Source: Bolinopsis microptera (lineage: Eukaryota; Ctenophora; Tentaculata; Lobata; Bolinopsidae). Taken from it: a stretch of 64,000 nt of DNA. The notes below the pieces were generated by a model, which saw only the letters and a list, made by a program, of their open reading frames with translations, was not told the DNA's origin and searched no databases. Shown here one piece after another: positions 8,654-30,524 of this stretch (its first letter is position 1; every line of letters starts with the position of its first letter). The translations under genes and the position numbers were made by a program. Where the stretch lies: positions 3,274,501 through 3,338,500 of the forward strand of contig NC_087073.1 of the NCBI RefSeq assembly GCF_026151205.1. Direction: 5' to 3'.

Positions 8654-9985
8654 TTAAACGAAATTATAATAACAGTTAGTGGTAATTTTCTGGTGTAATT
8701 TAACACATCTCAAGAGAACTAGTTGAAGATGTGATAAAAAATACAGACAAATTGAGTGTAGATGCAGTGATGAAAATGTATCACATCAAGCTCATCTGTT
8801 GTGTGAAGAGCAGTGAACACACTTATGTATATATATATGTATGGAGGGTAGATACAAATAAAAGATGATTCCAATTGTGGAAAAATAAACAATGCAGAAA
8901 AGTAGGAACTATTGAAAATGGTCAGATGCATCTTCTGCAGTTACTAGATCGAGTAACAAAGATACGGATAAAGGATTTTTGTCTCGGTTGCTAACACACC
9001 AGCTGTAGTTACTGTGGTGGTCGACACCTTCCAAAAGTCAGAATTCGCCATACCTTAAGTAAAACAAAAGTAAAACAAAATTTAAATTTGATTGCCATTA
9101 CAATGAATAATAATATCATAATAAATATAAGTAGACATCCGATAATAAACTTGTTACATCCAGTACAACCCAAGATGTCAGCCGACGCGACTTACAAAAA
9201 TAAAGAAAGCTAGCAGAAAGCTTATCATGGTAAAATATCAAATTAAAATATTCCAAATAACATTTGACCTAAACATGCCTCGCAAGGACTTTACATTATT
9301 ATGGTTGATCTTTACCTAAATTACACTTTCACATAAATAAGAAAAGTTTCAGTGTGTAGTAGTATTGATACATGTTACGTATCACAAATATCAGAGATAT
9401 TATTTTTCTGCCTTTTTCCGCGAAAAGTGGCATGCAACGTATGTCAATAGTAGTAATATAAATAAATGTTCATGACGTATGGTATGGGAACCTATTTAAT
9501 TTGATCTTGACCTTGTATTATGAATCAGTTGAGATACTACAAAAAATATTTCACCAGTTCTAATCGATCATTCAGCTTTATTCAAAACTTGTGCAATGTG
9601 AATAATTGGATTGATTCACGATGTCAATCCTTCGCAGCTCGGTGAGGCACAATGGTGCATTTTGCCGATCTACCGGTTGTGAGAAGTATTATTGAATTGG
9701 ATGCGCGCGCGACCCAGTAGTCGCATCGCGCTACAAATAATTTGACTGATTGCCATTTATAAATTGTGCGGAACTCAAGCTAAGTCAATATTATTATTAT
9801 GCTAAATTTTGAATTATGTTTAAATATCAATAATATAATTGTCATACCACATACGTTGTATGACCCGCCGCGCACGAGTGCGCGGCTCCCCCTAGTGAAA
9901 CGACCGTGGGTGTCACAACGTGATACAAAAATCATCCGTATACGTAAAACGTAGCATTTAGCGTTAAAATGCCTCCCTAGTTGGA
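8654..9985. other. Intergenic, nothing recognised
   Basis: AT-rich sequence without a coding region I can support. A palindrome with CGCGCACGAGTGCGCG lies near 9870-9886. No tRNA or other RNA gene was recognised. Confidence 0.4.
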
Positions 9986-9989
9986 GAGT

Positions 9990-10175
9990 TCCACTTAGCC
10001 TTCGGCGGTGGAACGCGCTACTGCATGCGTTGCTCTAACCAGAGCCCTCTCGCTTGCAGTAGCGCGCGACCGCCGTAGGCGGCAAAAGATCCTACTTGTG
10101 AAACAAGCGCGTCACGCAGTACGCGTAGGCACATGGCTATGTGAACTGCATGCGAGAGGGCTTTGGATATATTAA
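9990..10175 (-). mobile_element. Diverged older copy of the hairpin-ended element, host of a nested copy
   Basis: Sequence on both sides of the 10030-10145 insertion resembles the reverse complement of the same element. GGCGGTGGAACGCGCTACTG lies to the left, and CTGCATGCGAGAGGGCTTTG to the right, matching GCTACTGCAAGCGAGAGGGC in the 10222-10314 copy. Removing the insertion and one 9-bp duplication makes the two halves contiguous. The limits are approximate because the ends have decayed. Confidence 0.4.
10030..10145 (+). mobile_element. Hairpin-ended mini-element, copy A (116 bp)
   Basis: Starts TTGCTCTAACCAGAGC and ends CACATGGCTATGTGAA, bounded by a perfect 9-bp direct repeat CTGCATGCG (10021-10029 and 10146-10154). 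The first 16 bases form a hairpin GCTCT-AACC-AGAGC. The last 16 form a hairpin CACAT-GGCT-ATGTG. The ends share TT plus a 5-bp stem and a 4-base loop (AACC; AGCC when read inward from the other end), but the stem sequences differ. The interior is GC-rich with further small inverted repeats. It encodes nothing, so it must be mobilised in trans. Confidence 0.8.
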
Positions 10176-10221
10176 AGCAATTTAAAAGTTATGGCCGGCA
10201 AAAACTGTTTTGGTCACGTGA

Positions 10222-10314
10222 TTCACATAGCCATGTGCCTACGCGTACTGCGTGACGCGCTTGTTTCACGGCGGTCGCGCGCTACTGCAAGCGAGAGGGC
10301 TCTGGTTAGAGCAA
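10222..10314 (-). mobile_element. Hairpin-ended mini-element, copy B (93 bp, inverted)
   Basis: Reverse-orientation copy of the 10030-10145 element. It begins TTCACATAGCCATGTG and ends CTCTGGTTAGAGCAA, with perfect 9-bp flanking repeats GTCACGTGA (10213-10221 and 10315-10323). It lacks about 23 bases that copy A carries after GACCGCC. Copies A and B together form a long fold-back with a 76-base spacer, but their separate target duplications show they are two independent insertions and not one inverted repeat. Confidence 0.8.
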
Positions 10315-10516
10315 GTCACGTGACATACCGCTAGTTAAACACGAATTTTATTGTGTTGGGCTCAGGTTAGGGTTAAGGTTGCGGTCAGGATTATAAATAG
10401 CTAGTATAGTTTTGGAGTTATAGTTACGGTTGGGGCCGGGTTAGAATTAAATAAAAGTTTGTAGTGCAATACTACTACTGGGCTGCGCCGTGCATGAAAT
10501 AATGTTTCTCGCAACC

Positions 10517-10593
10517 TTACTGGGCGGTGCTCACCCTGTCATTCCGCCAAATTTCTGTTTGATTTATGTTAATGTTTATGAACATTATGGTCT
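10517..10593 (+). repeat. Dispersed structured repeat, copy 1
   Basis: About 80 bases shared with 35568-35651 and, more weakly, 36009-36093. Conserved parts are GGCGGTGCTCACCCTGTCAT, CCGCC, TGAACATTAT and TCTGGGGTCCCCA. GGCGG pairs with CCGCC, AATGTT can pair with AACATT, and GGGGTCCCC is a palindrome. It could be a SINE-like repeat or an RNA-derived family; no tRNA-type A and B boxes were seen. Confidence 0.55.
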
Positions 10594-11367
10594 GGGGTCC
10601 CCACTTGCGATAAATAGTTGTTATGTCATTTAATTTATTATTGATAGTGTGGTAATGAGATCGAGCGCTACAGTCAACGTAAAGATGAGTAAATATGTTA
10701 AAATGCAATAGACGACAAAGCTGAGTCGAACAGCACACTTTTAAATACAATTATTGAACATGCAATTTATCCGATAAATGTTGTTACCAATACGAAGGGA
10801 GTTACCAATACGAAGGGCCGGGAACAGTCCTAGGGAACCAAGATAGGATGGACATTTCTGCAAGATCTATTTGGAATGCTTCAGAGGGCATATTTTGACG
10901 GCATTCAAGGGATATCGAACTACGGACTTTTCCCAACTGAACATAATGGCTGGCTGTTATTAATTAATTAAATTCAGTATAAAGCCACGACTTTCGCTTT
11001 TGGGAAGCCATGGCTATAGCTAATTTATGAATTAAGCCAGGTTCCTTTAAGTTAAGGTCACAGTGCTCCATTTAACGGGTGATACTCGTAAAATATTTGT
11101 TCCATATATTATCCAGGACCGTCGACGAGTCCAACTCGGCGCGCGTCCTGGTAGGTTACAAACCTACAATGCTCCATAGAAGGTGAATATATTCGAAGGC
11201 CAGCCCCTGGTACAGGTAAAAACTTCATTTGCAGTTAAGTATATATACAATAAAGTAATTCAAGTGTTGCAATTGGCAGAGCACAATACAGAGGTAACGG
11301 AAACTGTCCACTGCTACCAATATTATATAATATGAAATATCAACAATCAGATATAATATATACACAT
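10594..11367. other. Intergenic, nothing recognised
   Basis: No gene or repeat that I can support. The AT-rich stretch immediately left of 11368 may be the 3' tail of the minus-strand R2-like element, but no clear poly-A tail or target duplication was found. Confidence 0.3.
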
Positions 11368-12675
11368 CTACTCCATCATAGGGGCAGGGATGAGGTTATA
11401 AGAGACTTCTGATAGTGGTGTCTCATATTTGCTGTCAATTTTTTTTCCTCTGTACCCTCGTAGAGCTATGAGTGTGGTTCTTAACATAGCGAATCTTATT
11501 CTTGTCCTTACATGTCTTACCACATCGCAATATCTCTCTTTTCTTTTCCTGGCGATGAGGTCTGCCACTCTATTTAGAAAACGCTTACATTCTTTGGACA
11601 TGCCTCCAGTTGTGAGAAATACGGCTGGGGTGAAAGTGGCCTTCTCTACGTTCAACACTCTCTCCAAGTACTCATCCTTCTTCTCCTTTTCGTTCTCTTC
11701 GTATACTTCTTGAAGAGTTTTGGTCCTGTTTGATAAGCAATTGGGGTGTGAAACCCTTATGTCAAGAAAGGTCTTATCAAATGGAGTCCAAACTCCTCTA
11801 GCAGATACGTCAAGCCGAGCTTGGTCACCTGTTATAGTCTTGGGGTTGAGGCAGTCACCCTCATTTACCTTCTGTAGCTGGGGTTCGACTTTCACATCAT
11901 GACATACCTCACGAAGGAGATTTGCTAATGTGTCTCTGATGTTGTTGTGGGTCATTATCACATAACCCCCTAGCTTACAGGTGAGAAGGTGGTCAAGATC
12001 ACTTGTTTTCCCACATCCACAGGTGATGGGAGTGTTTGGTATCCACCAGCTGTAGCGTAAGCAGACACTGTCACGAAACTCCTCTTTGTTCAGAGTGTAG
12101 CCATACTGCTGAAGTGGCAATGTGTTAAGCCAACTGGACGCTCCCTTTTCTCTTGCTGCTAGTAGTGCTCTCTTAGAGGAGGTGCCACATCTTTCAGCTA
12201 TAGCGTTAAACTTGGCTTGGAGCTCGGAGTTCTTCAAATTTTTTATCATCACTTTCCCTGATTTGGTGAGGTTACTGGATGCAGTGTAAACTTCCTGTTG
12301 GTCCACTATTGCCTTTGTAAGCTCGGTGGTGAGTAGCTTGGAAGCTGTGTACTCAGACTGGCATTCCTCGTGGGGTTTACCAATGCCCAATCCTCCCAAT
12401 CTTATTGGTAGACTTAACACGTCCCTCTCTAAGTCTGAAATCTCCCTGCCCAGCATCTTTGGCAGAAGCGTTTGTCTTATTTCATGTTCTAGCGGCTCCA
12501 TGGCTTCAGAGATATGAGGAACAGTCCTTTGAACAAACTTCCATCGGTGTTGTATGCCAGAGATGTAGGCTGAATAGGCTGCTTGAGGCTCAGATTCTAC
12601 AATATCAGCTAGCATCTTGATGTCTTTGCACCACCCTTGGACCTTATTGCAGTTAAGTACAGCTTCGAAAATCAA
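11368..12675 (-). mobile_element. 5'-truncated R2/NeSL-like non-LTR retrotransposon, C-terminal part
   Basis: An open frame of 435 codons covers the region after the reverse-transcriptase palm of a retroelement with a restriction-like endonuclease. It contains LPIRLGGLGI, typical of the RT-thumb region. A zinc motif CGCGKTSDLDHLLTC (C-x-C-x7-H-x4-C) follows, then the endonuclease core with LDVSARGVW and FLDIRVSHPN, the PD-(D/E)XK-like signature. The catalytic RT motifs, N-terminal zinc fingers and 5' end are absent; an in-frame stop lies about 18 codons upstream of the interval. It is therefore a dead 5'-truncated insertion, the usual fate of such elements. The frame shows no internal stop, so the insertion is not very old. 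Clade is inferred from domain type only. Confidence 0.8.
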
Positions 12676-14228
12676 TCGAAGCCATAGAATCAGGAATACA
12701 GTACATCTTTTGAGTCACTCTGCTATTAAAGCTACTTAAGCTGGGAAGAAGTTTATGGATATCAAGTACATTATTTTAGCTAGTCAAGTATGAAATCCAT
12801 TTTGCTTAAATAGTTTGGTTTTCTGCCATGTCGGGAACGAATTCCCTAATGCAATATAAGTGGCACATATCTCCTTTCTCATCAAATCTTAAGAAGCAGA
12901 ATGATTTGATGTCAAAACAGTATGTCTGCTACTGGTCAGTCCCAACGACTTTGGCTTAAAAGGTGCAGAAGGCGCAAGAATTGACATATCTGCTCTACAG
13001 TGAACTTTTAGTGCATATGTTTTATTCATATCAAGGGTGTCCCACTATACATGTTTTTAGGCATTTTACGAAAAAATCGTAAGGAAAAGAATGACATACA
13101 TTTAGGGTATAATGAATTGTTCACACAAGCTTCTTCAAGTACATGGTTTGAAAAAAAAACAGTGTTACTTCTTCAAAGTGTTATACTATACAGACTACAG
13201 AGGGCCAGGGAAGGAGGGGGGGGGGGGGGGTGGGTCTAAATTGGCCAACGTCTAGCTTCTGTTATAATATGTAAGTGATCCTAAGAATTAGAAAATGGTC
13301 ATTCCATTCCTCAGCTCCAGATATTATAAAGAAATCATTAGGCAGACCTAGACCTCTTGGTTACTTGGCATTTGCTGTTGAATAATAATGTGTAGTACAC
13401 TGTTTAGTGTTTATTCATTACAGAATTAATTTTCAAAGAGTAAAGTATGTTAATGTGTATTGTGTAGGGACTATGGATAACAGATTATTCTATATTTTAA
13501 AATTATTAATTTTTAAATTTAAAACCTCTGACAGTTCAACTGCAAGCTAATTTTAAAGAGTGTATACTGTGAAGTTTGTGCGCCACACCTACTAAGCACC
13601 CATATTGCAGATTAAGTGCCATATAACCCTCAAATCCAACATAGTCACATACCCACAGCCTCACCTTATCGAAACAAAGCCTTATAAGGAATAATGTTGA
13701 TCAGGGTATAACTTAGCAATATTCCATTGTCAGTGCCATAATGCGTTACAATCATTATCAAAGGGTAACCTGGATAGTGGATTATGTCATTAGCTCATTG
13801 GTTGAATCACTGAAAGATTGAAACTGCATTCAGTCAGGATGATCCTTGAACCATGAACCTTGAAAACTAAAATGGGTTTAAACTTGAATTCTGAGTTTCA
13901 ATCTCCACTAATAATCAATCATAAATATCTTTAACACAAAACACACCAAATAATGATGTCAGTGAGCACATCCAGATGAATTTGGGTTGGAGATCAGTGA
14001 CTTGATTCCTTAATTGACAAATACAGTAAAACCACGATTTACCTCACAGTTTGGGGGAAGAAAATATTTTGGTAAATCAGGGTTCTAGTACTGTAATATT
14101 AATTTTTATCTCAAACTCCAAAAACACAGCCACATTATATCTAAAATCAGTGCAATGTTTACTATAGTATAGTACACAGTAGTAACTATAATACATCTCA
14201 TGTTATTTAATCCAATAATTTGTAGGCA
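12676..14228. other. Spacer between retroelement and RING gene
   Basis: AT-rich, with no coding region seen. A G-rich run (13210-13232) is the only notable simple sequence. A promoter and 5' UTR of the RING gene should lie near its right end, but no core element is distinct. TTTGTAG just before 14226 could be a splice acceptor, so a non-coding first exon upstream is possible. Confidence 0.3.
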
Positions 14229-14243
14229 ATGGTCTCAACATGA
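14229..14243 (+). promoter_or_regulatory. Possible four-codon uORF overlapping the RING start codon
   Basis: ATG GTC TCA ACA TGA lies directly before the RING gene; its stop overlaps the main start as ATGA. If this ATG is in the mature 5' UTR it could reduce or couple translation of the main frame. It is only a reading of the sequence, with no evidence of use. Confidence 0.25.
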
Positions 14244-17200
14244 CTAACAAACGAGGGACAACACAAAGTAGTCCTAATTTTAGAAACTCCACCAATAACA
14301 GTAAGTCTGACAGTTTACTTTGTTCATAGATATTGAACAAGTAAATTCTACCTTCTTATATCCTGAATTTACTTTGTTTATTAAAATGTCCTTCATGGTA
14401 CTTTCATGTAACTTCTAAAGTTTCTACTTTTACCGAAATGAAATCAGGGACTGCAGACTCAGAAACTGTTCCAAATTCGGTGGCAAGACGGAGATCTCAG
14501 ATGGGCTCTTCATTTTCATCTTCAAGGTATTTTCTGAAGTATTGTGTACAGTGTTACAGTTTGTAGTGTAAATTATATAGATAGTAACCTGTCCTAGATA
14601 GAAATGTCGATACATTCTATTTTGGTTACACATAAATAATTCTGTAACTGTCATGCCACATGTATGCTGTATAGAAAACAAATTAGATGGCCTGAGAAAT
14701 GACATTTAGTCCAGTCATTCTTGACTGCTTTAGCATCTCAGCAACTTCACCCGTAGCTAAACCTTACTTGTACCAGTCAGAGGCACCTAGGTTCTTCCTT
14801 TGTGATTTGAACTTGCTTTGTCAATAGTGAAATTCATTATGCCTAAGAGCTGCCACTAGCCTCTTGGCGTCATGCCTGTGACGAGTTTATCATAGTTTTT
14901 TATCAAAAGAGAGAGCGAGTCTTTACCTGGCTTTATCTATAAATACATTCTTTATCGATGATTTTTTGCACTTTTACCACATCATATTGCAATTTATGTT
15001 CTCCAGTATCCATGATAATAGTTCATTCAACTGTAGCTTGACACGCCGAAACGGTTAAGATATAACGATTTAACGTTGAGAACCTCTCCTATTGGAACAC
15101 ACTCATGACTTCTGTGACTATTTTAGGCATAATTTCACCCTACTTTTATCTTAGTACAGTTCAAGAGCAGACGATGATTTTTCTTATGAAACTATAAAGT
15201 GAATCATCCAGACTACTTTAAATGGCTAAGATGTGTAAAACAGAATGGTATATCAGTAGGATATCAGTAGGAGTAGTATATCAGTAGGAATATTCATGAA
15301 TAGTCATCTAAACCTGAAGCTAAAAATGAACCAGGAATATAAACCGTACCTGCTGGTTAATAAAATTAGCTTTAAATATTATTTTATTGGTTTATATAAT
15401 ACATCTGGTAATCTACATCTGTATAACTTATAATTTCCTGAAATATTAAACTAAAATCCGTAACCTTGCAGACGGAACACCCTGAGCAATGCGGCCACGT
15501 CCCGTGAGCAAGAGCCGGGGAGCAGTGCAGGAGGAGTTTCTAACGTGTACAGTACTCGTTACTCACGTCGCTCCCTCAACCAGCCACAGAGAGTTGCCTC
15601 GGTTACCCGGTACAATCGCCTGGGCAGGCGGCATACTACCACTGCTTCAAGTTAGTCTGCTTATCAATTTGCAGGTTTCATTTTATCGATTGTGTTCAGA
15701 AATTGGTATAATTAGTCCAGTGTTTGTACGTATGTTTGCTATCCGTACCGGTTTGCTTCTATCTTTAAAACATTTCTTAACGACGGGTAAACTCACAAAA
15801 TGTTAACTTAAAATTAACTGTTGTACAGGGTAAACTCACAAAATGTTAACTTAAAATTAACTGTTGTACAGGGTAAACTCACAAAATGTTAACTTAAAAT
15901 TAACTGTTGTACAGGTTCTACAAGTGCTGTCAGAGAGTCTCCTGATCAAACACCAGGTCCCCGGAGATCAGCTAGAATAAGTTCCCGGCTCATAGAACGG
16001 AGATTGTCCACAACTATACCCTCTCCTCTTCTATCTAACACTATATCTAACCCTTCCGGTGAGTCAGCCATTCAAATATTGGAGCCAGAAATCGTTCAAT
16101 TTATATATATATATAATCGAAGAGTTTAAAACTACATAATTTGAGTATTGTACCCTGTTCTATATATTATACATCTGACTTAGGAGTTGTTCTCCGATTA
16201 TCAGTATTGTTTTATCATTATTGTGAAACAAATTCTTTGCCGCCCGCGCCCATTTCGATTGTTTCATTTGTTATAATACGTCGTTTGGTGGTGCTGTCTA
16301 CACAGCATCTCCATGTTAGTTTAACTTGTGTTAAACCCTCTCCATCAGGAATAACACTAAAAGAACTAATACCTCATAGAACCTGTATCCCCAGCCTCAG
16401 AGGAGCTCACACCCACCGGGATGCCGAGTGTAACATCGTCCCCCTTTTCCCTGCCCAGTCGGCCAGTCTCCGGCCGGGTATCCAGCGCTAGTCGCCCTTC
16501 TTCCGCCGCTTACAACTCCGACTCTATGGAGGTAGGAATACTTAGAGATTATTCGAGAAGAGCACGTTTTATGTAGCACTTTAAAATGCAAGTCTGTGCG
16601 AAGTGTGGTTACTATATAATACCATGTGTTCTGTACATTAGAATGTGCTGGAGCTTGCGCAGTCCTGTGACCTGGTACAGCATCGCATGCTCTTTACAAC
16701 ATTGTGCGCTATTTTCAATTAATTTTAATACATATTTGATTTGCTTGCTAACATTATTTATGTATTTCTAGCATGTTATATATGCATTATTCAACATATG
16801 TTATATATAATACAATCCAGAGAGCACTGATACATTCATAGCATATCATTTGAGAGAGAGTGAGAGAGAGTGGCATACACAGTCTCTTACATAGCCCACC
16901 ACTCGGAATATATAACACACATTGTCATTCTGGAACACTGAAAATTGCCGTGTTTGCGAACATTTAATACCAATATCGTATTTCAGTAAATTTATGAATA
17001 TCCAAAGCATAGACTCCGGTGAACCAAGGCAATTACCTAATTTGTATGTACAATTACAGTGGCCTCTTAACGATCTTATTTGCATAATTACATGAGCCGA
17101 TCTAAGCACTAGGACTCAGCATGAACGGAACAGTCAACAGTGTGTATCTGATGGCAGTTTGCTAGTGGTACACTGGCTGTTAAGTGTTGAAGCAGATAAT

Positions 17201-20200
17201 TATTTAAATATTTTTGATCAAGAAAAGCACTAAGCTGTAAGCAGCAAGCTGTACTAAGCAAATAAGCATTGTGCACTAAGCTGTAAGCAAATAAGCATAA
17301 TGCACTAAGCTGTAAGCATGTGAAGCACAGCTGTTAGCGCCTGATATGAAAGAATCCCCCCAGGAGGGGTGGCAGTGGCGCGAGTTCACAAACTCGCCCG
17401 TGGTCGACTGGAGATCAGAGCACGGCACCCCGCTACCCCCAATACCACACTCCACGACACCTCCCACTGCAACAACCACACCGCCTCCCGCCACTCATCC
17501 TACCTCCGTACAGCCAGAACCTAACACTGACCACCAGGCAGCGACAAACGACACCCCTGACACTGATATACAGTCCGTGGAGATCGTCCGTGTTGTCCCT
17601 CATCGTCTTATCGAGATTCCAGAGAGTGAACCATTCGAGCCAAGACCCCCTCCTCGGTACCGACCCTCCAGTGGTCGGTCTTCCCTCGGATCTGGTGTTC
17701 TCAGACGAGCTCGCAGACTCCTTCGTTAGTGAAACGTTCACTTTATTTTCCCTCTTACTAGCATTAGAATTTAGAGCTAAAACACATTACTCATCACGGC
17801 CGTCATAGATATTTTCACTGACATTAAATATTGACTAAAATTTAACCGTACAACAAAACATACAGGTGAATCAACAAGTTCGTCAACACCAGAACCAGAA
17901 CCATCAACCAGCATCGCCAATCCTCCTCCAGGTACAGTAAACTTCTACATAGTTATATTTCTATCGTTACAACCTGACCTACTGTTCTGGTTGAAGAGCA
18001 CGTCAGTTTACTGGCTACACTTTACAACCTGACCTACTGTTCTGGTTGAAGAGCACGTCAGTTTACTGGCTACACTTTACAACCTGACCTACTGTTCTGG
18101 TTGAAGAGCACGTCAGTTTACTGGCTACACTTTGCAACCTGTAACCAGAATCTTGCAATCTTCAACCAGAACAGTAGGTCTGGTTGAAGAGCACGTCAGT
18201 TTACTGGCTACACTTTACAACCTGACCTACTGTTCTGGTTGAAGAGCACGTCAGTTTACTGGCTACACTTTGCAACCTGACCTACTGTTCTGGTTGAAGA
18301 GCACGTCAGTTTACTGGCTCCACTTTACAACCTGACCTACTGTTCTGGTTGAAGAGCACGTCAGTTAACTGGCTACACTTTACAACCTGACCTACTGTTC
18401 TGGTTGAAGAGCACGTCAGTTTACTGGCTACACTTTACAACCTGACCTACTGTTCTGGTTGAAGAGCACGTCAGTTTACTGGCTACACTTTACAACCTGA
18501 CCTACTGTTCTGGTTGAAGAGCACGTCAGTTTACTGGCTACACTTTACAACCTGACCTACTGTTCTGGTTGAAGAGCACGTCAGTTTACTGGCTCCACTT
18601 TACAACCTGACCTACTGTTCTGGTTGAAGAGCACGTCAGTTTACTGGCTGCACTTTACAACCTGACCTACTGTTCTGGTTGAAGAGCACGTCAGTTTACT
18701 GGCTACACTTTACAACCTGACCTACTGTTCTGGTTGAAGAGCACGTCAGTTTACTGGCTACACTTTGCAACCTGTAACCAGAATCTTGCAATCTTCAACC
18801 AGAACAGTAGGTCTGGTTGAAGAGCACGTCAGTTTACTGGCTACACTTTACAACCTGACCTACTGTTCTGGTTGAAGAGCACGTCAGTTTACTGGCTACA
18901 CTTTGCAACCTGACCTACTGTTCTGGTTGAAGAGCACGTCAGTTTACTGGCTCCACTTTACAACCTGACCTACTGTTCTGGTTGAAGAGCACGTCAGTTA
19001 ACTGGCTACACTTTACAACCTGACCTACTGTTCTGGTTGAAGAGCACGTCAGTTTACTGGCTACACTTTACAACCTGACCTACTGTTCTGGTTGAAGAGC
19101 ACGTCAGTTTACTGGCTACACTTTACAACCTGACCTACTGTTCTGGTTGAAGAGCACGTCAGTTTACTGGCTACACTTTACAACCTGACCTACTGTTCTG
19201 GTTGAAGAGCACGTCAGTTTACTGGCTCCACTTTACAACCTGACCTACTGTTCTGGTTGAAGAGCACGTCAGTTTACTGGCTACACTTTACAACCTGACC
19301 TACTGTTCTGGTTGAAGAGCACGTCAGTTTACTGGCTACACTTTACAACCTGACCTACTGTTCTGGTTGAAGAGCACGTCAGTTTACTGGCTACACTTTG
19401 CAATCAGCTTACCATTATTAGCCCATGTCCGCCTTTATTAAACTTCTTTCTCTCTCTTTATTGCACTGTTGCACTTGGTCCTTCAACTCTGACAGGTCTA
19501 TATTGTTTTTACTAGGGACTTGAGCACTTCTGAACTAGTTATATATGCGTACCACTCTTTACTTAAACATTGTGTTTTCTTCAGAGTCTGATTCTAGTGG
19601 TGAAGTAACGCCTACTCAGCCTCGGTATGTTCGGTTATATTTCTTCTCCGTTTCTTTTTAAAAGTGTTCTTGCTCAAAAAAGTAAAACATTTTCAGATAA
19701 ACAATAGCTCTCTGTTATCAGCGATATTATAATTAATTAAACAGAATAATAACCTGATAGTAGCCTAGCCTTTTTTACACCATTCGCTATTTTATTAACT
19801 ACAATTCGGATTTTCGCCAAATCAAAATAAGGAGAAAAAAGCGAAGACCCCTAACCGCTGTTAATCTGCAGTCGCCAATTCCGAGAAATCAGATTCAGCC
19901 ACAGTAGCTCGAGCGCAAGCGCTAGCGCTGCAGCGCTACGGAGCACTGAAGAAGAACACCCTACAGCTTCTACTTCTTCCCCCGACGATGCGTTACGTGG
20001 GAGACTGTTCGAGCGAGCTGAACACGAGGCCCTGAACAACATGATCATGTCAACTTCAGTTACTGGTTTGTTTGAATATTTTCTCAAATAATTTACTAAT
20101 TCTCCCAACGCAATTTTTCCGGTTGTGCCTATTTCCGGTTGTGCCTATTTCCGGTTGCATTTTGTATTCAAATTATTTGTAAACCGACTGCTGCACCACA

Positions 20201-23200
20201 AAATGCAGCTGAATATTGTTAAGAAGATCTAGCGCTTTCTCCCCTACATGTACAGAAATTAGCTAGCCCATAGAGCACTATATACCAGCCCGTACATTAA
20301 CATGCACTTTACAAATGCAATCTAACACAGCATAATGAAATATCCAGACTTGAGACCCGCTCTCATCCACAAATATTATTTTACCGAATATTTCACATCT
20401 TATTTGGTGGTCTACTAACAAATATATAGATTGAAGAGAGAGAAGAAATAAAATAATTTGGAGTTATACAAATTACCGTATTAAAAAAATTGTCCCTGAA
20501 TGGTGCCTTGACTCTTGTCATTAAAAGAACCTGAAATAAATTCCTAAAATAGCTTCCCCCATGATGCTAGGTCTGCGTCAAGATCCAATTCTCGATAATT
20601 TGAATTTCTTTTTTGGCAGGTGACGTGGTGTTCAATAGTAAAACTCTCTCCAAATTTAGTATGATTAACTACCACAGTCCGATAGCTTTTATATCAAGTC
20701 TATATAATATCTTATATCAAGGATAATGGATGTCTGACTGAACCCAATGTTTCCACGCTAATAACGGAGATCCTATCCAGGGTTATTAACCTAATATTTT
20801 TCCTTGTCAACTGATACAGCCTTGTCAAATAAAGAGCGTTTATTTCTTGGCATTAGATCGGCTAAATCTAATCCAATCTTCACCGGTATGCCAAAGTAAG
20901 CAGTTTCTGTTTCTAGCTAAATACTTCTTGGCAATATCTAATATCAGCATTCACGTTTAAAAGCGAGGATGTATCCTTTCGCCAGGAAAAAAAAACCTCC
21001 ACCATTCCCCTTGCGATTAAATATTACATTTCTCATTAAGAGGCAATAAGAGTCAATAAATTTCACTTTAATGAATCTGCCACCATTCAAATGACTATTT
21101 GCATTGTCATTACAGTATCATTGTTCCTCTGGTCTCATGCTGTATTGTTAAATTCCTTTTCAGCAAATGAGCGACTCCAGCGACTGCGTTTGTTACGACT
21201 CAGTCGGACAGAGCAATCCACAGACGTAACAGCCAGGGAGAGGATTATCACGGGCTTGTTACGGAGAAGAGAGACTGCTGAAAGTAGTGGAGAAAGTAGC
21301 GGAGAAAACTCCGGGGTTGGCGGAGTAAGTTATTTAAACTGACAGGGTTGCTTAAACTGACATTTCACGTCGTGTTATTGCCAGCCTGATTACATGGGAA
21401 AAGGCAGCTCGTGTCATTTAAATAATTGTATCTGCTATCTTTTATTCTGATAATTGTAATATCCTGTTTTCTATTATTTGTGTCTGACTGTATTTAATTC
21501 TCATCTCTAAATAGAATAGACAGTTTTTGGGAGTTCCAAATAGTTTTTGGTTATTCTGATCTGCGACAAATGATACTGCACTGTTAGGATAAACGACGTT
21601 TCAAAGTAACAACTTCTTATTCATGCTGACAAAATTGGTAAATATGTGAGAAAACTGTCTCATAAAATTTATTAATCAAAAATGGCTAAACGACAACAAA
21701 TTGTTCAAATACTCGACTAAAATTAGAATCAAAATCTATATATATACACCACTACTCGATCTGCTATTCAATAAACTTAAAACATCCACTAAACAGCAAG
21801 TACGTGATTGTGATCGTGTGATGGAATGACATGTACAGTGATAACAGATGATAAGGTAAAAGATACAATACATGTGAGATGGTGTATACACAATGTGAAT
21901 GAAATTATAGTGAGTGGTTACTGATTGTGAGCGAGATGTGACAAAACATTAAAACTTACTACTACTAGAAAACTGAAACTGTATGCAATAAAAAGGGAAT
22001 GAAACTAAAATATCTAAAATTCTTCAGTACTAGCTATGATAAAACGTTTAATAGTATCCAGTTCTTCTCTCTTGTTAATTGTAGGGTTCAGATTAATAAT
22101 AAACATCGCTTCGAAAATCTTTCTTCTGACAGTATTGGGCTCAATTCTTAAAATATCTACTTCTAAACTGGGATTTAACCCCTCGTGACAGCTCGAATAA
22201 TGTATGGCAAAGGCTTGACTAACATTAGAAGGGGTAGCAGGGTAGGTAGCGTAACGTAAGTGTTCTCCTACACGAGCATGTACTTTCCTACTGGTTTCTC
22301 CAATGTACAGCTGGTCACATAATTTACACTTAATCTTATATACAACATTCTTCACTTCACAATCTTTATTACAAACTATCAAAGGGCAAATTTTACATGA
22401 ATTAATACTGCACACACGTTTATCATACGGTCTGTTACTACATAAAATATTTCTCAATTTCGAAGTAGGTTTAAAGTTTACTTTAATAGGTAAATTGTTC
22501 TGCTTTACATAATTTCTAATCTTATTGCTAGTACTGTCCGAAATAAAATCTAAATTAAGAACTGTCCTGGAATCATCCTCAACACTCTGACGCCTGTTAG
22601 AATTACTACTGTTACAATAACGTCTTGGGTTCTGGTAACCGTTTTTCTGTAATAGATCATCAAGGAGTCTGAGAGAGTGCTCCTTTTCCGCTGGGCCAGA
22701 ATATTCTAAATAGAATATATCACACAATTCTTATGTAAACTTTCCTCTCAGGAGAGTTCCTCGACCAGTGGCCCCACACGGCTACGGATGTTCGAAGTAC
22801 CGGGCCAGGGGGCCATCCTCATGGAAGATATTAGGCCAGAGACTTCGTTAAGGATGTCGCTTGTACAGGTCAGTCGAAGAAAAAGTTTGATAAGAGCTAT
22901 ATTTAGATGGAGATGACGGCGCGCGCGACCGCCCAACGTAAGTGACGCTGAGTAAAATATTGCTGTCAATGCTGAGAGAACGCGCGCGTAGAACGCCGCG
23001 CAATGTTGTTCACATGATACTTTAAACATCGTACGACCTACACGGCAGAAATGTACACAGCGAAGTGATCTGTCGTGTCTTTACACGAAAGATTTACCGG
23101 ACACTCTCCGTCCGTTCTGTGGCAGTTCAATGGGAACAGCGACGTAAGGATAAAGAGCGCCACAGCCTTATCTCTTTGTCGATAATCCTATGAGACAACG

Positions 23201-26200
23201 CTGTCCTAATTTCCGTTCGTGATCTAATAAAGTGGAGTGTGATGTTCGCGTGTAACGCCTGACTCAGTTACTGTTAGGTCATACCCAAGCTCTCTGGATC
23301 ATCTTTCTTGTAATCAGTGACTTGAGGTCCTGTTTGGATGCGTCCACTCCCTTTGTTTATCAATATATACCCATCCTCCCATACATTGACCGGAAAATGA
23401 TCAAACCGGCAGGCCAAAACCATCAAAACTGCTGTAAATGTCGATAGGCCTATGATAACTTAAGTCACATAACTTAAGTCACATAACTTAAGTCACATAA
23501 CTTAAGTCACATAACTTAAGTCACATAACTTAAGTCACATAAATTCGCCAATCAATGTATCTGCCTTTCTCCTTATATTATTGGGCGTTATGTCTGGATC
23601 AATTTTGTAAAGTTACATGGCATGTGTTAATTATCTAGACATTGTTACCTGTTAGGTGAATAGAATAAAGCGTGTGTGAACCAGTATAATTGTGTTTAAA
23701 CTATTCTGAGCTGACATAGAAAGTGTCGTGTACAATATCGCCGTATTGAATGTAAATTAACACACCTTTCAGTGCTGAAACCAAACCGTTAATTAGCAAT
23801 TAGAGGGACCTTGTCAAGTTTTCTACTTTTCGGTATTTGAGTGTAAAAGCACATGATCTCAAGCGTCAAGTTGCTCGTTTCGCATATTTTACACCTTCCT
23901 TAAAAGAAATTGTTATTCCAGGCCCAGTATCTCCAAGAAGTCCTCCTGAGAATCTCAAGTTTACTCGATAATCTTCACATTCTGTCACAAATGAACGAAC
24001 GGATAGAAGGTAAGGATATGCTTCTTGAAAAGATAGAAGCAGTCAGTTTTATAAATTGTATTGAGATTGGTATCTAACCATTAATGAAGCCCCATCCACA
24101 GATGACCCACGCCTAAGAACGATACTCGCCTTCGCAACTCTAGATCCAGACAACATGACCTACGAGGTGAGACCCTGATTTTATATAATTTTTGCTCCCT
24201 GGAAATATATTTTGTGATATTTCTGGAATGTTTTAAATTACGTGGGGAAGTGTTTACAAAATGCCGACAGCATGTCAGAGGTGATCTTGTAGGGACTCCC
24301 TTTTCTGCTATTGTCACATTGTTGGAGGAATAATAGCATTGCATCTTTTGTTTCCTATCTTTCAGAGCATTGGGCCTCGTAGTCGTTTCAAATAGCTATT
24401 TCAGGCCTTTTTGATATCCTTAAAAAGGGCAGAATTAACGCACTGTTTTATTTTGAGTGAATTACTCTGTGCATATTACATTATTACTGGTAGATTTGTC
24501 TGCATCAGAATATATCGATATGGATATTACTGATATTCTACATTTAATCATGAAATTTTGCGACTCAGATATTTTCGAAATATGTGTCAGAAATGTCTCG
24601 ACATATTTGACATATTTGTCACCCTGGCTGTAACTTGAAAGTGTTGGGTTATCAACATGCCCAGAATATAATATAATCAAATAAACAATATCAAATAAAC
24701 AATAATTTCAAACATGTCGGAGATCAACATTTCACCTCCATCTTACCCTCTAGTTCCATGGGCAAATAATTCAGTGAAAAAATTTACCCAAATTTTATTT
24801 GCGAAATAAAATTATACGGGTGACCTGTTCCATAGGCAAATAATTTGCACACAGTAATCGATACGCGGGTCCGGGACTCGACGGCGTAAGACTCTACGGC
24901 GTAAGATTCTAACCCTAACCCTTACACTAACCCTTCCCCTAACCCGCCGTAGAGTCTCACGCCGTAGAGTCCGGACCCCTGTTAATACGTGAGCACGTTC
25001 ACAAATTTTTATTAGCTCAAATATTTGAGTGAATCGAAAAGAGAGAGGTAAAAAGTCGGGAAAATTATATTTGAGTGAAAATTTGCCCATGGAACTGTAG
25101 GATAAAGCGGGTATCTCCAGGAAATACTAATAGTATATCCGTTATAGTGTTATACCCAGAATATAAACTTTGTTTTGGATTATATTTGGTTTATAGCGTA
25201 GGACTATTAAAGTATCAGTGTTAACTAAACGGTGTTGCATAACCAGGAAGTGCTGTCTTGTACAGAGAATAAGGCGAGATTTTAAGCTTTGTTGTTCGTT
25301 GGCTTCAGCATAATACTAATAGTAGAAATATACTAATAAACGTGGAAATATGCAAAGACTCACAATTGGATATTGAATGTCGTAATAGAGAAATAAAATC
25401 ACGCCTGACTCCTACAAAACATCGACCATCAGTTCTAAAGCTGTCACTTATAATCACGAACCAGTCTCTCGTTTACTCTGGATCAATTATACAAGTCTAA
25501 TTACAGTAAGTTTAAAACGTTCCCTATCAAAATACATAGCGGTGTGAATCCGCTGTTCTACTAATGTCACTTATAACACTTTACTAATACACTTTACTAT
25601 TACCAGTACATACCTCCTCCTTGTTACATACAGGGTCTTGACAACAACACGCTGACCGATATACAATGTACAAAACACATTACCACACATTATGATTGTG
25701 TCACACATTATGATTGTGTCACACATTTGAGACAGTGTCACACATTATGAAACAGTGTCACACATTATGAAACAGTGTCACACATTATGATTGTGTCACA
25801 CATTTGAGACAGTGTCACACATTATGACAGTGTCACACATTTGAAACAGTGTCACACATTATGACAGTGTCACACATTTGAAACAGTTAGTAAACAGGAT
25901 TTTAATTATCGCAGACTACAAATGTACAAGTTAGCTGCTTTACACACATTATCCGACTTCGAACATGGTACCACTTTGTAATTTGTATGTTACGGCTTCG
26001 ACCTCCAATCCTTATATTTCTGATTTTGTTCCAGCTTCTTAAGTTACTATTTCTCAAGGGTTTCATCCATCATGCAGTTTCCAGATCCACTGGGACTTCT
26101 CGGCACTGCAACGGTAGGTACTGGGTAGTGACATCTTGACACCTTGACACCTTGACACCTTTAATAACGAGTCGGCATGCTAGCTGACATTAGGGGGAGG

Positions 26201-27889
26201 CGGTACAAATCTGCTAATTAAACTGGAGGTCGCTATACCTCAGAGTATACTCTTAGCTCTATTCCTATTCTTGTGTTTCATTGGCATTTATCCGCGGGAA
26301 GTGATAGTTCGGCTGCTGACGTTAGCGGCATGATTTATCCAACTAATACATCAATATCCCGTACTCTCCAGCTTACAGAAGTCGTTTCCTTATATCAGAT
26401 CCTTATTTTTGCACCTGGTTCGTATTGTTTAGAACGCTTGGTTATTATATTCTGCAATGATTGGTATACGTCACCTTCAGCAACTGTTGATGCTGGACGA
26501 GCTCCTGCCCAAGAACCAAGGCGCTACAAAAGAGATGATCAGCAACAAAACGAGTCTTCAGCAGTACCACAAGTCCGATAATCATGAGAACGATAGTTGT
26601 ATTATTTGTATCACCGACTTTGAAGAGAGCGAGGGAATCAGGTCAGTGCCACTTTAGTGGAATATCATGGGTTTAAATTTACTTCTGTAAATTTGTTTAA
26701 AAAGATAATTCTGTTAAGGTATGTAAGGGTTGTAATTATGTTTTGTCAGTGCATTTTCGCTCTCCTGTTGTAGATTACTGAACACTTAGTAATATTGATC
26801 CAATATTTCACAAGCTAGTTGCATGTTAGAGCCTTTGTCAGCAGGTTTGGTTATTTAACTCGTGATAATAATATGATTAATAACCTAAAATAATAAATTA
26901 TTAATTAATAACCTAATTATCATAAGTAATTATCATAGGTTATTAATAACTAATTATTATAGGTTATTACCGTGCTGTCATATTTATCACTTTGGGTGTG
27001 TGGACAACTGGTTAAAACGAAAGAAAACCTGCCCTATGTGCAGATCACCTATCGATGACAGTAAGTTTTTATTTTCCATAAATTTGTATGCTTTTTGAGG
27101 ATCATTTAATTCTTAACTGTTTTTTCACTTTCTTCACTAATGGAGAATTTGTCACGCTACTGATCCTGCTAGCTAATGTTTAAGGCAAAATACCATGTAG
27201 CAAGATGAATGATGACAAACTGATAAACGAACTCGGCTTGTTTTAGAAATGCTAAGTCGAAAATGAGGGAACATTGATATTCCTACTCCTATGATACCCT
27301 GATCACTAGTGTTTTATCTTCGCGCCCTCCATAAAATATGTTTTTAGTACTCTGTCCTATGTCTTGGTTGGGACCGCATGGGTTGGAAATGTTACCAATT
27401 AAGTTGGAGATTATTAAGTTAGGGTTGTTATCCTGGAAGGGTGCAGATAAAAAGTTATTAGTGTTGGACTCCGCCCAATGCTCATTGCTCTGTTCCGCTT
27501 ATAATTATTGTTCATATTATTATCTGTTATGATAATACACCTTATCTTACCCTGCATCGACTTAAGGATAATAAGCATATTTCAAATTGTGTGACAGTAT
27601 CATGTGTGAAAGTGTGATCGTTGTAAATAACTAAGAGACTGCATTTTCTTTGGCAATATACAATATAATAACGTTTCTCTGCCCCATACTACGAGTATGA
27701 CCCATAACCAGTTTGTCAGTACACACTGGCATTATTCTAGGATTACCTCTCACTTCCTAACCCACTAAAGTTTCTGTTTCACTAAAGTTTCTGTTTCACT
27801 AAAGTTTCTGTTTCACTAAAGTTTCTGTTTCAGAGCCGACCAAGATGTATCTTGAGCGTATGGATCGATATCGGGATTTTAAGAAATGA
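14240..27889 (+). CDS. RING-H2 protein, probable E3 ubiquitin ligase (18 exons)
   Basis: Eighteen exons join in phase into 697 codons: 14240-14300, 14457-14526, 15472-15650, 15915-16058, 16401-16531, 17364-17724, 17866-17931, 19585-19624, 19872-20065, 20820-20885, 21164-21324, 22752-22868, 23922-24009, 24102-24166, 26078-26113, 26481-26641, 26963-27060 and 27834-27889. The N-terminal two thirds are low-complexity, rich in Ser, Arg, Pro and Thr, with a Thr/Pro run in the 361-nt exon. The C-terminus is a canonical RING-H2: CIIC, then [24 protein letters not shown], split over two exons, with a 23-residue tail ending RYRDFKK. Such fingers bind an E2 enzyme; substrates are unknown. The layout resembles RLIM/RNF111-type ligases with a disordered N-terminus, but I do not recognise an ortholog. 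The first two acceptors and the 36-nt exon are the least certain. At 16395/16401 two acceptors six bases apart both keep frame. No transmembrane segment is seen. Confidence 0.85.
15786..15914. repeat. 43-bp tandem triplication ending in a splice acceptor
   Basis: Three near-identical units, each ending TGTTGTACAG, the acceptor used for the exon at 15915. Using either upstream acceptor would add 43 or 86 bases and place an in-frame TAA right after the junction, so only the last copy keeps the protein open. Confidence 0.9.
17969..19403. repeat. 55-bp minisatellite with higher-order structure
   Basis: About 26 head-to-tail copies of a 55-bp unit (core CCTACTGTTCTGGTTGAAGA, then GCACGTCAGTTTACTGGCT) inside an intron of the RING gene. 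Variant units (CTCCACTT for CTACACTT, GTTAACT for GTTTACT) recur in the same order. A special block with an inverted core (CTTCAACCAGAACAGTAGG) appears at about 18131 and again 633 bp later. The array thus grew partly by duplication of a multi-unit block. Confidence 0.95.
20113..20157. repeat. Short tandem repeat TTTCCGGTTGTGCCTA
   Basis: About two and a half copies of a 16-bp unit in an intron of the RING gene. No function suggested. Confidence 0.7.
22014..22727 (-). mobile_element. Penelope-like element fragment with GIY-YIG endonuclease
   Basis: An open frame of 237 codons encodes the C-terminal endonuclease of a Penelope-like retroelement. It has a cysteine-rich linker ([19 protein letters not shown]), the GIY-YIG core as VVYKI followed by [18 protein letters not shown], and the distal Glu in [20 protein letters not shown]. 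The reverse transcriptase that normally precedes it is missing, so this is a 5'-truncated copy. It lies antisense in the intron before the RING-gene exon at 22752, only about 25 bases from that exon, so its right edge abuts the splice acceptor. No stop interrupts the endonuclease frame. The upstream Leu-rich stretch ([14 protein letters not shown]) fits the end of the RT/linker region. Confidence 0.88.
23455..23543. repeat. 14-bp tandem repeat ACTTAAGTCACATA
   Basis: About six perfect copies in an intron of the RING gene. Confidence 0.9.
24751..25099. mobile_element. Small fold-back element with a telomere-like centre
   Basis: Both ends carry AGTTCCATGGGCAAAT in inverted orientation, and a third related segment (TGTTCCATAGGCAAATAATT) lies inside near 24819. 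The middle is a second inverted repeat. No coding capacity and no clear target duplication. It is read as a MITE-like insertion in a RING-gene intron. Confidence 0.6.
24868..24977. repeat. Inverted repeat with CCCTAA-type loop
   Basis: Two arms of about 33 bases (GGTCCGGGACTC... and ...AGAGTCCGGACC, with CTCTACGGCG inside) enclose a loop of degenerate CCCTAA repeats (CTAACCCTAACCC, CCCTTCCCCTAACCC). It resembles interstitial telomeric sequence inside a hairpin. Confidence 0.75.
25680..25887. repeat. Irregular tandem array of GTGTCACACATT units
   Basis: About eleven units of 19-24 bp alternating between ATGATT, TTGAGACA, ATGAAACA and TTGAAACA spacers, in the intron before the 36-nt exon of the RING gene. 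Degenerate copies indicate an older array than the 22-bp or 55-bp ones. Confidence 0.85.
27763..27830. repeat. 17-bp polypyrimidine tract repeated four times at a splice acceptor
   Basis: Four perfect copies of CACTAAAGTTTCTGTTT stand directly before the CAG acceptor of the last RING-gene exon. Only the final copy is followed by AG; the others run into CACT. CACTAAAG could supply a branch-point A in each unit. Confidence 0.92.
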
Positions 27890-28775
27890 AGCCAGCTCAA
27901 AGAACTACATCAAACCAAAAGATGATATCAAGCTGCAAACCACATCGAATAAGAGATTTTTACAGGTAGCAACTCAGGTTGAAAGTACATACAAAACGAA
28001 ATCCTGGGTCAAGACAGTGGACTAAATCCTAATTTTGTATGTTATTAAAAGAATTTTGATTTTTGGAAAAGACTTTTATTGAAAGGGAGAGTGCGGGTAT
28101 GTTGTTGCGGTTGTCAGATTATATACAATGTAAAATCCAGATTCAGCTTCTCTCTTTGAGTTTTTAAATTCAGATTCGATGATGAGCACATTTTTTGATG
28201 ATTCATGTTGTTGCTAATCATTTTATCTGGTAGGGTAAATTCTAAATTAATACCGAATATATTAAAAAACTAAATATATGATACCAGTGTATTAATACTT
28301 TGAGAGTACCTAAAACTAAGTTCATTATAATTATAATGTTGTTTAAACGATAGTTTTGAAATTATTGTTTGATCAGTAGAATTATTGTTATCATTTGGGC
28401 CAATTTGCGACCTAATGCCAGATGAATACTAATAATGATGTGTACATATGATATACTTTTATTCTCAAAATGTTACATTTTAATTGAACGGAAATAACAA
28501 GCCTGTATTGCATTTGTCGATCTTTCAACTATTCAAGCCTGAAAATAAAAACGTATCAAGAGCCGTGTGCAACCTTACAGAACTATAATGTTTGAATGAA
28601 AGTACCACTTACTACTGTACTACGTCACTATTTATCAACTATGGAGTCGTTTATAAGCAATTACTTAATCAATTTTTGGTCAATTTTCGGTCAATTTTCG
28701 CTCCCCCTCCGTAATACTAATCAGTTTTACCAATAGTAATTGTGTTAAAAATTAAGCAAGCGTAATTATTTAGAA
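27890..28775. other. 3' flank of the RING gene
   Basis: No coding sequence seen. An AATAAA at 28544-28549 could be a polyadenylation signal for the RING gene, giving a 3' UTR of about 650 bases. Confidence 0.35.
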
Positions 28776-28821
28776 ACCCCCTCTCTCCCCCTTAGTGATT
28801 ACGTAATATGTGAACCACCCC
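28776..28821. mobile_element. Solitary end of the Harbinger-like family
   Basis: GATTACGTAATATGTGAACC followed by ACCCC, preceded by C-rich sequence, matches the terminus and subterminal poly-G/C of the 7283-8653 element with few differences. No partner end was found nearby, so it is a fragment or a deleted copy. Confidence 0.65.
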
Positions 28822-28879
28822 GATACTTCTACTACTTGCTGATAAAAGGAAAATCATGAAAATTCATATTTTTAAAATT

Positions 28880-29740
28880 TCTGAACGGAAATTTGATAGC
28901 TAATTGAGGATGGTATGAGACCAAATTGACGTACTGGAACTCTGGAAGTCAAAATCCCCGAAAAAATAGAAAAAATAGAAAAAATCATATTGTCCCATTT
29001 TCAGTTTTTGAAGACGAAACTTCCAGGACTGAAAATTCAACAATTACTCACCAATAACCAATTACTCAGTCAACTATATATGGCATATATGGCACAATTG
29101 AGGTGCTGGAAGTTTGATTCCGGTCGGAGGAAGCTTACTACAGAAACTTACAAAACAAAAATTCATATTTTCCAAATCCTGTCCCATTTTCAAATATGAA
29201 ACTTTCTAAACGGAAATTTGACCGATTTGATGGACTTTTTGCCCAACGACCAATTAGTTAGCTAATTAAGGATGGTATGAGACCAAATTGGGGTACTGGA
29301 ACTCAAAATCCCTGAAAAAATTTCTGGACAATAATTCGGTCAAAACTTATATGCTTTTGCCTTTGGCGGAGATATAAACTGCGCCAACGTTAGTTAGCTA
29401 ATTAGGGATGGTATGAGACCAAATTGGGGTACTGGAAGTCAAAATTCCCGAAAAAATGGAAAAAACATATTCTCCCATTTATTTTCCCATTTTCAGTTTT
29501 TGAAGACGAAACTTCCAGCACCGAAAATTCACAGTTTTTACCGAATTATTGTCCAGAAACCAATTAGTCAGTCAACAATAGATGGCATATGACACAATTG
29601 AGGTGCTGGAAGTTCGATTCCGGTCGGAGGAAGCTAACTACAGAGAGCTTTACAAAACAAAAATTCATATTTTCCAAATCCTGTCCCATTTTCAAATACG
29701 AAAATTTCTGAACAGAAATTTGAAACCAATTATTCACACA
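28880..29740. repeat. Partly duplicated repeat, about 490-bp offset
   Basis: Segments such as CAGTTTTTGAAGACGAAACT (28999 and 29487) and GATTCCGGTCGGAGGAAGCT recur about 490 bases apart, and GGATGGTATGAGACCAAATTG occurs three times (about 28908, 29269, 29405). It looks like a decayed repeat or transposon that was duplicated and deleted in part. No coding frame is conserved between the copies. Confidence 0.7.
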
Positions 29741-30160
29741 AACCTGGTTATCATTTTGATTTATATGGAGCATAGTACCATTAGGACATTGAATCAAGTA
29801 ACGCGTGACTCAGTAATGGGGTTTTATTGAATAGATATTATGAATAATTCAAGTGCACGATCATATTCATAATATTAATATTAATATGGGCAACCTCCCC
29901 CAGTTACAATTTATGTTAAAAAGTCCTACCAATTTAAATATCCCTGACCTCTCATACAAATTGCTCATCTCAATTTGACCTGACGGATTTTACTTTTAAT
30001 GAAGGATTTTGCTCTTAATGTTTTATTAATTAACTTAATTAAAAGTTAAAACATTAAAAGTAAAATCGTTCATATATTCATATTGTGCGTCACTATAACA
30101 TGTACATTGTATAAGCTTCATTGAACCCCGCTATCTATTAATTAAGTGGAACTGTTGCTA

Positions 30161-30246
30161 TTGCTCTAACCAGAGCCCTCTCGCTTGCAGTAGCGCGCGA
30201 CCGCCGAAGGCGTCACGCAGTACGCGTATACACATGGCTATGTGAA
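30161..30246 (+). mobile_element. Hairpin-ended mini-element, copy C (86 bp)
   Basis: Third clean copy of the 10.0-10.3 kb family. It has the same TTGCTCTAACCAGAGC start and CACATGGCTATGTGAA end, with perfect 9-bp direct repeats CTGTTGCTA at 30152-30160 and 30247-30255. It lacks about 30 internal bases relative to copy A. Both terminal hairpins are intact although the interior is shortened, which suggests the ends are what matters for movement. Confidence 0.85.
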
Positions 30247-30524
30247 CTGTTGCTATATAAACATAGGTGATAGATTTTGTAGGGTCGTTAATTGTTTAGT
30301 TTGATATTTACAATCCTGCAGCCGGTAACTCGACATTTGTCCGAACACTATGAACTGACTACCTTTCAACAGTGGAGGTAATCAGTAATGCTAACTTAGT
30401 CACTGACTGTGGTAATGTTCGCGTTTGTACTTTCAGTTTGGGAACTTGGATTGTAGGTTATTTAGCCTTGTTTTCATCTCGGAAAGATGTTTTGAAATGA
30501 GCTTCGTTAGATTTATATGTAAAT

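Follow-up and report, generated by a model that had tools for sequence, protein, structure and literature searches.

A 64,000-nucleotide stretch of the genome of the ctenophore Bolinopsis microptera (contig NC_087073.1, positions 3,274,501 to 3,338,500; hereafter the window) carries several families of tiny repeated elements, each end of which can be drawn as a hairpin. Three copies of the first of these, family 1, have exact ends: a 116-bp copy at 10030–10145 (plus strand; hairpins at 10030–10045 and 10130–10145), a 93-bp copy at 10222–10314 (minus strand) and an 86-bp copy at 30161–30246 (plus strand). As a sequence-only reading of this DNA had described, at exactly these coordinates, the three copies have the same 16-bp ends and are flanked by perfect 9-bp target-site duplications that all differ: CTGCATGCG (10021–10029 and 10146–10154), GTCACGTGA (10213–10221 and 10315–10323) and CTGTTGCTA (30152–30160 and 30247–30255), none of which is assigned a strand. 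The first copy lies inside an older, inverted family-1 copy (9998–10162, minus strand), of which 9998–10029 and 10146–10162 remain. With the insert and one duplication removed, the older copy is identical to a family-1 copy at 36 of 40 positions, and the empty site of the 10030–10145 element is therefore known.

The window also holds members of other families with ends of the same design. A 126-bp family-D element (9611–9736, plus strand) begins with TTGATTCAC-GAT-GTCAATC, finishes in a D-type right end with one extra base and is flanked by ATAATTGGA and ATAATTTGA, a duplication with one mismatch. The 98-bp family-A element at 11072–11169 (plus strand) has the ends TTAACGGGT-GAT-ACTCGTA and TTGTAGGTT-TGT-AACCTAC and an 8-bp duplication, TGCTCCAT. 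An 88-bp family-C element (35568–35655, minus strand), with the left end TTACCTGGG-GAC-CCCAGGC and a C-type right end finishing in GCCCAGTAA, has a degraded duplication, and an imperfect family-G copy (9839–9928, plus strand) has a short insertion in its left hairpin and no clean duplication.

We searched the whole assembly that contains the window (264,652,675 bases in 232 contigs) with both family-1 ends and aligned the flanks, the check that the sequence-only reading had proposed. The left end, TTGCTCTAACCAGAGC, has 1082 exact matches and the right end, CACATGGCTATGTGAA, has 1031, with none for either reversed control pattern. Sampled loci comprised 20 with both exact ends, 20 in which an exact end has no exact partner nearby, and 20 short copies fetched among the 30 copies of 37–65 bp. 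Among 57 left–right pairs in the sampled sequence, accepted with up to one mismatch in the left end and two in the right, 34 have a perfect 9-bp duplication, a count biased towards duplication matches in that the right end giving the best duplication was taken; in a few rows the left end belongs to an outer element and the right end to a copy nested in it, and the overlapping loci L001, L002, L043 and L045 are left out, as are duplicates with identical flanks. Duplications of 9 bp with one mismatch (seven pairs) or two (three), of 8 bp, perfect (one) or with one mismatch (two), and one scored as a perfect 11 bp leave nine pairs that lack a convincing duplication, some of them an outer end paired with a nested copy. 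The 34 targets with a perfect 9-bp duplication have no strong motif in common.

Family-1 copies with a duplication span 37–206 bp, the longest having arisen by nested insertion. Even the 37–65-bp class, 30 copies genome-wide, is often flanked by a perfect 9-bp duplication (11 of the 20 fetched). Identical interiors of 55 bp and of 56 bp recur at different target sites; for example, a 56-bp interior with the CCTCTTGC variant is present at ACCGTTATG and at ATGATTCAT, with a perfect duplication at both. These short forms therefore moved. Deletion joints in the short copies, examined by eye, often coincide with short direct repeats (GCAGTA, for example), as would be expected from interrupted gap repair or slippage. 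At 101–151 of locus L024, the 9-bp flank to the left of a 42-bp left half of family 1 recurs almost unchanged on its other side, like a one-ended insertion.

Further evidence of transposition comes from ten cases in which an element interrupts family-1 sequence (L011, L013, L020, L026, L030, L031, L035, two in L042 and 10030–10145 in the window). Removal of the insert and one duplication brings back recognizable family-1 sequence on both sides of the insertion, but on one side only in L026. The cases in L030 and L031 look like a single duplicated event, and the list, gathered by eye and through family-end searches, involves some selection. The C-type insert of L039 lacks a clean duplication. 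The earlier claim that the elements really transposed is borne out by the duplications found at many sites and by nested insertions with recognizable empty sites. One 760-bp family-1 copy, in L037 (100–860), was taken up as a lead to a long element and rejected: its interior is another inverted-repeat element with no long open reading frame. This interrupter has TAGGGACTA ends and no TT-hairpin ends; by eye, it has an apparent 8-bp duplication and is hAT-like.

Besides family 1 and its variant 1b, we distinguish families A, C, D, B' (a relative of D), E and G. Families 1, A, C, D, E and G have distinct sequences and a common design, which consists of TT, a stem of 5–7 bp, a loop of 3–4 nt, the complementary stem and a target duplication of 8–9 bp. 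The two ends read TTAACGGGT-GAT-ACTCGTA and TTGTAGGTT-TAC-AACCTAC in family A, TTACCTGGG-GAC-CCCAGGC and TTACTGGGC-CGC-GCTCAGC in C, TTGATTCAC-GAT-GTCAATC and TTGTAGCGC-GAT-GCACTAC in D, TTGACCATT-GTT-AATGGTC and TTGACGGAT-GTT-ACTCGTC in E, and TTGTCATAC-GTT-GTATGAC and TTGTATCAC-GTG-GTGACCC in G, the last of these paired at 5 of 7 positions; B' has the end TTAATTGAC-GAT-GTCAATT. By patterns in which two stem pairs may vary, the genome has 3329 D-type ends (control, 5), 579 E ends (control, 0) and 2175 G ends (control, 0). Where a duplication is clean, its length is nearly always 9 bp in families 1 and D and either 8 or 9 bp in A, C and E; a B' copy (L035) and a G copy (L063) have 8 bp. For A, E, G and some of C, the 8-bp lengths come from inspection of the flanks by eye. 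An 8-base word, GTAGCGCG (CGCGCTAC), is common to the otherwise different families 1, B', D and E (window 10030–10145 and 9611–9736; L035 and L031).

Two scans by structure and duplication compared TT with other terminal dinucleotides. In 127,155 sampled bases, 30 places have TT and a hairpin at both ends together with a 9-bp duplication of at most one mismatch, and 11 other terminal dinucleotides give 0–2 places each; four of the 30, all within the window, are AT-rich and resemble chance matches. A looser scan of 222,811 sampled bases, with exact duplications and a hairpin at both ends, returned 37 places with TT, 39 with AT and 29 with CA, and 0–6 with each of the remaining 13 dinucleotides. 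The 29 CA rows all come from a single locus and the 39 AT rows from three loci, at 9-mers that are found more than twice per locus (tandem or clustered repeats). The TT rows are spread over 28 loci, the window counting as one, and 33 of the 37 lack such repetition.

The two ends of one element agree at 7–8 of 16 positions in family 1 and 1b (in family 1 at 7, namely TT and TA.CCA) and at 6–14 of 19 in the other families. The earlier description of the ends as different in sequence thus holds largely, with these shared family-1 bases and the E ends, alike at 14 of 19, as the qualification. All elements start with TT and finish with AA, and each is too short for a transposase gene; their cores are GC-rich. 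We conclude that these are non-autonomous DNA transposons, very short and belonging to several families. Miniature inverted-repeat transposable elements (MITEs) are short, non-coding and present in high copy number, leave a target duplication and are parasitic on a partner. The elements described here are likewise short, non-coding, numerous and flanked by target duplications; unlike MITEs, they are matched at their ends by fold and not by a terminal inverted repeat, except in part in family E, and their copies go down to 37–56 bp. The left-end pattern TTGCTCTAACCAGAGCCCTCTCGC has no exact match in viral_contigs and genome_contigs, collections of viruses and prokaryotes only, so this result is uninformative about other animals.

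The sequence-only reading had also held that the fold is shared and the stem bases are not, which the covariation of 12 ends from several families bears out. We imposed one fixed structure, TT-7-3-7, on 12 distinct 19-nt ends, with no fitting of stems to each family; the set leaves out the end H (paired at 5 of 7) and family 1 (other length), and its B' right end differs from that of the 13-end set used below. Of 84 stem cells, 90.5% are paired, compared with 50.2% in shuffles (standard deviation, 4.2; none of 500 reaches the observed value), and sliding the partner by 1–3 columns lowers pairing to 23.3–44.0%. The covariation score is 1.043, compared with 0.249 in shuffles (0 of 500). Two-sided changes occur at all seven pairs, yet this count alone is matched by 75 of 500 shuffles, and the 17 further pair types are a number reached by 24 of 500. 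In a permutation test of 13 ends, 77 of 91 pairs are Watson–Crick, whereas 100,000 permutations average 34.6 and never exceed 63. With likely relatives removed, nine ends retain 54 of 63 Watson–Crick pairs (reached once in 100,000) and seven ends retain 42 of 49 (reached twice in 5040).

The D lineage contains a double change from G-C to A-T, which also fits. Among 100 copies listed of 3313, these being the first places and all on contig C1, the outermost pair is G-C in 59, A-T in 34, G-T in 1 and unpaired in 6, figures that count copies and not independent events, as the A-T form is essentially one subfamily. At stem pair 5 of the same copies, 52 have G-C and 44 have C-C. Across families and ends, then, the stems vary by compensation while mostly keeping their base pairing.

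A transposase would be supplied in trans, and we looked for it with profiles, by which weak matches may be missed. The genome has 88 matches to PF10551, 58 to PF12762 and 18 to PF20700. The strict scan, made at 9 bp only in L043–L066 and at 8 and 9 bp in other loci, found TT-hairpin ends with a duplication spanning a transposase at 0 of 20 distinct loci of Mutator-like elements (MULEs) sampled from the PF10551 hits, 0 of 12 Merlin loci sampled from the PF12762 hits and 0 of 8 PF20700 loci. A looser scan of L043–L066 allowed duplications of 8–10 bp and hairpins at any of four offsets; the rows listed, up to 12 for each locus, include many hits, which were judged as a group, and not one by one, to be chance. 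Among family-1 ends with unusual interiors (25 left and 73 right), no left–right pair lies at kilobase distance, in a search that would miss an autonomous copy retaining the usual subterminal sequence. The longer copies with the same ends and a transposase that the sequence-only reading had proposed to look for were not found in the loci sampled. Two of the PF20700 loci, L102 and L103, are about 99% identical over 4.2 kb and have a transposase frame of 723–749 amino acids together with a second frame; adjoined by TTAA, they are probably a young Kolobok-like element.

The same loci bear on two known superfamilies as sources of the enzyme. MULEs leave duplications of 8–11 bp, a range into which the elements here fall, and include groups without terminal inverted repeats, such as Curupira of platyhelminths, which has a 9-bp duplication and no repeats (PMC6446971, in the part available). 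The elements could accordingly be non-autonomous relatives of such groups moved by a MULE transposase, a view that is compatible with recognition by shape and that draws on the 88 PF10551 matches. They lack the long terminal inverted repeats of many MULEs, as do the non-TIR (terminal inverted repeat) groups, Curupira and VANDAL among them, in which such repeats are absent or degenerate. The available part of PMC6446971 describes no palindromic end hairpins for those groups, which encode a MULE transposase. None of the 20 sampled MULE loci has TT-hairpin ends with a duplication around the transposase, and where likely ends of MULE copies were found they are ordinary inverted repeats, mostly GG-ended; L057, for instance, has inverted-repeat ends GGCAGTATCGAGATAGCCCG and an 8-bp duplication, and L061 has inverted repeats beginning TTGAATATAG beside palindromic words, which blur its limits, with no hairpin after TT. 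We regard a MULE relationship as possible but doubtful; the suggestion of a Mutator-like enzyme in the sequence-only reading keeps the 8–9-bp duplication as its sole support. In L076 (about 1956–3021), a MULE-domain locus has imperfect inverted repeats with GG ends and the 9-bp duplication GTATTTGAT, which suggests that MULEs can insert with duplications of 9 bp in this genome. Short MULE-domain fragments also occur as inverted pairs about 9–14 kb apart (C4:1929841–1944297, C10:12968812–12979540 and C1:3879106–3888349), as if they were arms of large inverted-repeat structures.

Merlin (IS1595-type) elements, with 58 PF12762 matches in this genome, have duplications of 8–9 bp, like the elements here, which could be miniature forms of them; Merlin termini are GG with inverted repeats (PMC8101967, in the part available), unlike the TT...AA of our families. 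No hairpin ends were found at the 12 sampled Merlin loci. The copies whose ends were found (L049, L051, L069 and L072) start with GGCAGT, GGCATT or GGCAAC and have an 8-bp duplication, L049 and L051 beginning GGCAGTCT. That the elements are Merlin derivatives is very improbable.

Prediction of minimum-energy folds of single-stranded DNA places both end hairpins in family-1 copies of 86 nt (30161–30246), 116 nt (10030–10145), 56 nt and 45 nt (z-scores of -1.9, -2.7, -1.7 and -2.7, respectively) and in the family-A element of the window (11072–11169; z, -5.5). Several observations weigh against an enzyme that reads the hairpin. Two of the family-1 z-scores (-1.7 and -1.9) are modest, the predicted fold of a whole D element contains neither designed hairpin (z, 0.1), the C and G folds contain one each (the G piece being one base short), and the E fold contains one hairpin and the outer four pairs of the other. 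The C-C mismatch at stem pair 5 in 44 of the 100 listed D-type ends means that perfect pairing is not required. One mismatch is present in 7 of 13 stems (A-L, C-L, C-R, D-L, D-R, B'-R and E-R), and G-R and H are paired at 5 of 7. Family E copies, listed and judged by eye, differ mostly by ordinary decay, with one double change and more single ones; compensation is therefore clear between families and ends and not within young families. Invariant TT, a common central G.T and terminal C, and the 14-of-19 agreement of the E ends leave room for recognition by sequence. The covariation figures are also somewhat inflated, because ends were partly picked for a palindromic or hairpin form: D, A, B' and C were noticed beside family-1 copies for their palindromic look, E came from the hairpin scan, and G was seen as a repeat and then confirmed by the scan. 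Finally, the loci sampled (20 distinct MULE, 12 Merlin and 8 PF20700) yielded no transposase for these ends and no autonomous copy.

In the main rival explanation, a transposase acting as a dimer would bind the terminal palindromes as duplex sites with two-fold symmetry; each family, or each end, would have a half-site of its own, and no hairpin would be extruded. A perfect palindrome is always a symmetric duplex site as well, and the shared core bases (TT, G.T and terminal C, TA.CCA in family 1, and the E ends) are consistent with this, as is the GTAGCGCG word, which is found in families 1, B', D and E and could serve in duplex recognition. However, the half-sites usually differ between the ends of one element (in A, C, D, B' and G the ends agree at 6–11 of 19 positions), so one dimer would have to read unrelated half-sites, and pairing is kept while bases change at all seven positions. 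We give this rival a clearly minor share of our confidence. A transposase that reads shape is the best fit to the data and is what we propose, with slightly better than even confidence; the sequence-only reading had suggested such an enzyme, and in this respect its suggestion agrees with the data while the palindromic duplex site remains beside it.

In the mechanism that we propose for shape reading, a transposase supplied in trans would make a staggered cut of 8–9 bp, a length that fits MULE- or Merlin-type DDE enzymes. It would recognize its substrate mainly through the palindrome at each end, which would be extruded in hairpin or cruciform form; the TT at the tip and possibly a short core in common would add to this, and many sequences could act as ends provided that they fold. 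The internal-deletion series (37 to more than 120 bp) may be the remains of interrupted repair after excision, and mobile copies of about 55 bp suggest that the ends could meet without bending a long duplex, for example from single-stranded or cruciform DNA. A related alternative is that the elements spread as single-stranded DNA or structured RNA copies inserted by a DDE integrase and not by cut-and-paste. The two end hairpins would suit such a route as substrates, and elements of 45–56 bp with perfect duplications seem short for a duplex transpososome; the copies have no poly-A tail, and no search was aimed at a linked integrase or reverse transcriptase. We consider this route unlikely. Returning to shape reading, its most general form, in which one eukaryotic transposase that reads hairpin or cruciform shape and not base sequence mobilizes many sequence-unrelated families, with a minimum of about 45–56 bp and a duplication of 8–9 bp, is a tentative proposal to which we give somewhat less than an even chance. 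Elsewhere in the window, at 49817–53659 (minus strand), an open reading frame of 1280 amino acids resembles, by eye, the polyprotein of a non-LTR (long terminal repeat) retrotransposon, with endonuclease, reverse transcriptase and RNase H.

Structural recognition of ends has precedent in IS200/IS605, prokaryotic elements in which subterminal hairpins near the ends are read by structure and which are not known to make a target duplication; the elements here resemble them in the proposed reading of end-near hairpins and differ in having target duplications. Helitrons are not known to make a target duplication and have a hairpin at the 3' end only, unlike the elements here, which have duplications and hairpins at both ends. 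A structural analogy is offered by the repetitive hairpin-forming elements of sponge mitochondria, which, in the part of PMC2800124 available, are likewise tiny, dispersed, hairpin-built and divergent in structure and composition; those double-hairpin elements are organellar, whereas ours lie on chromosome-size contigs and have 8–9-bp duplications. The miniature repeats of pithoviruses are palindromes with a putative TA duplication (PMC10664404, in part) and are therefore not alike. In another ctenophore, Mnemiopsis, the available part of PMC12221973 reports that more than 75% of loop anchors have a GC-rich motif containing two CpGs and that more than 90% of loop promoters have insertions of DNA transposons. 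Within the open-licence literature, mostly screened at title level, we found no description of such hairpin ends and no matching family.

The usual view of DNA transposases that leave target duplications is that they locate their ends through sequence, in the form of terminal inverted repeats. If the proposal is correct, ends conserved in fold across families would explain how elements without terminal inverted repeats are recognized, with compensatory stem swaps offering a clear test of shape recognition, and such an enzyme could yield an integration tool programmed by shape. It would also account for a large, hard-to-annotate share of the comb-jelly genome.

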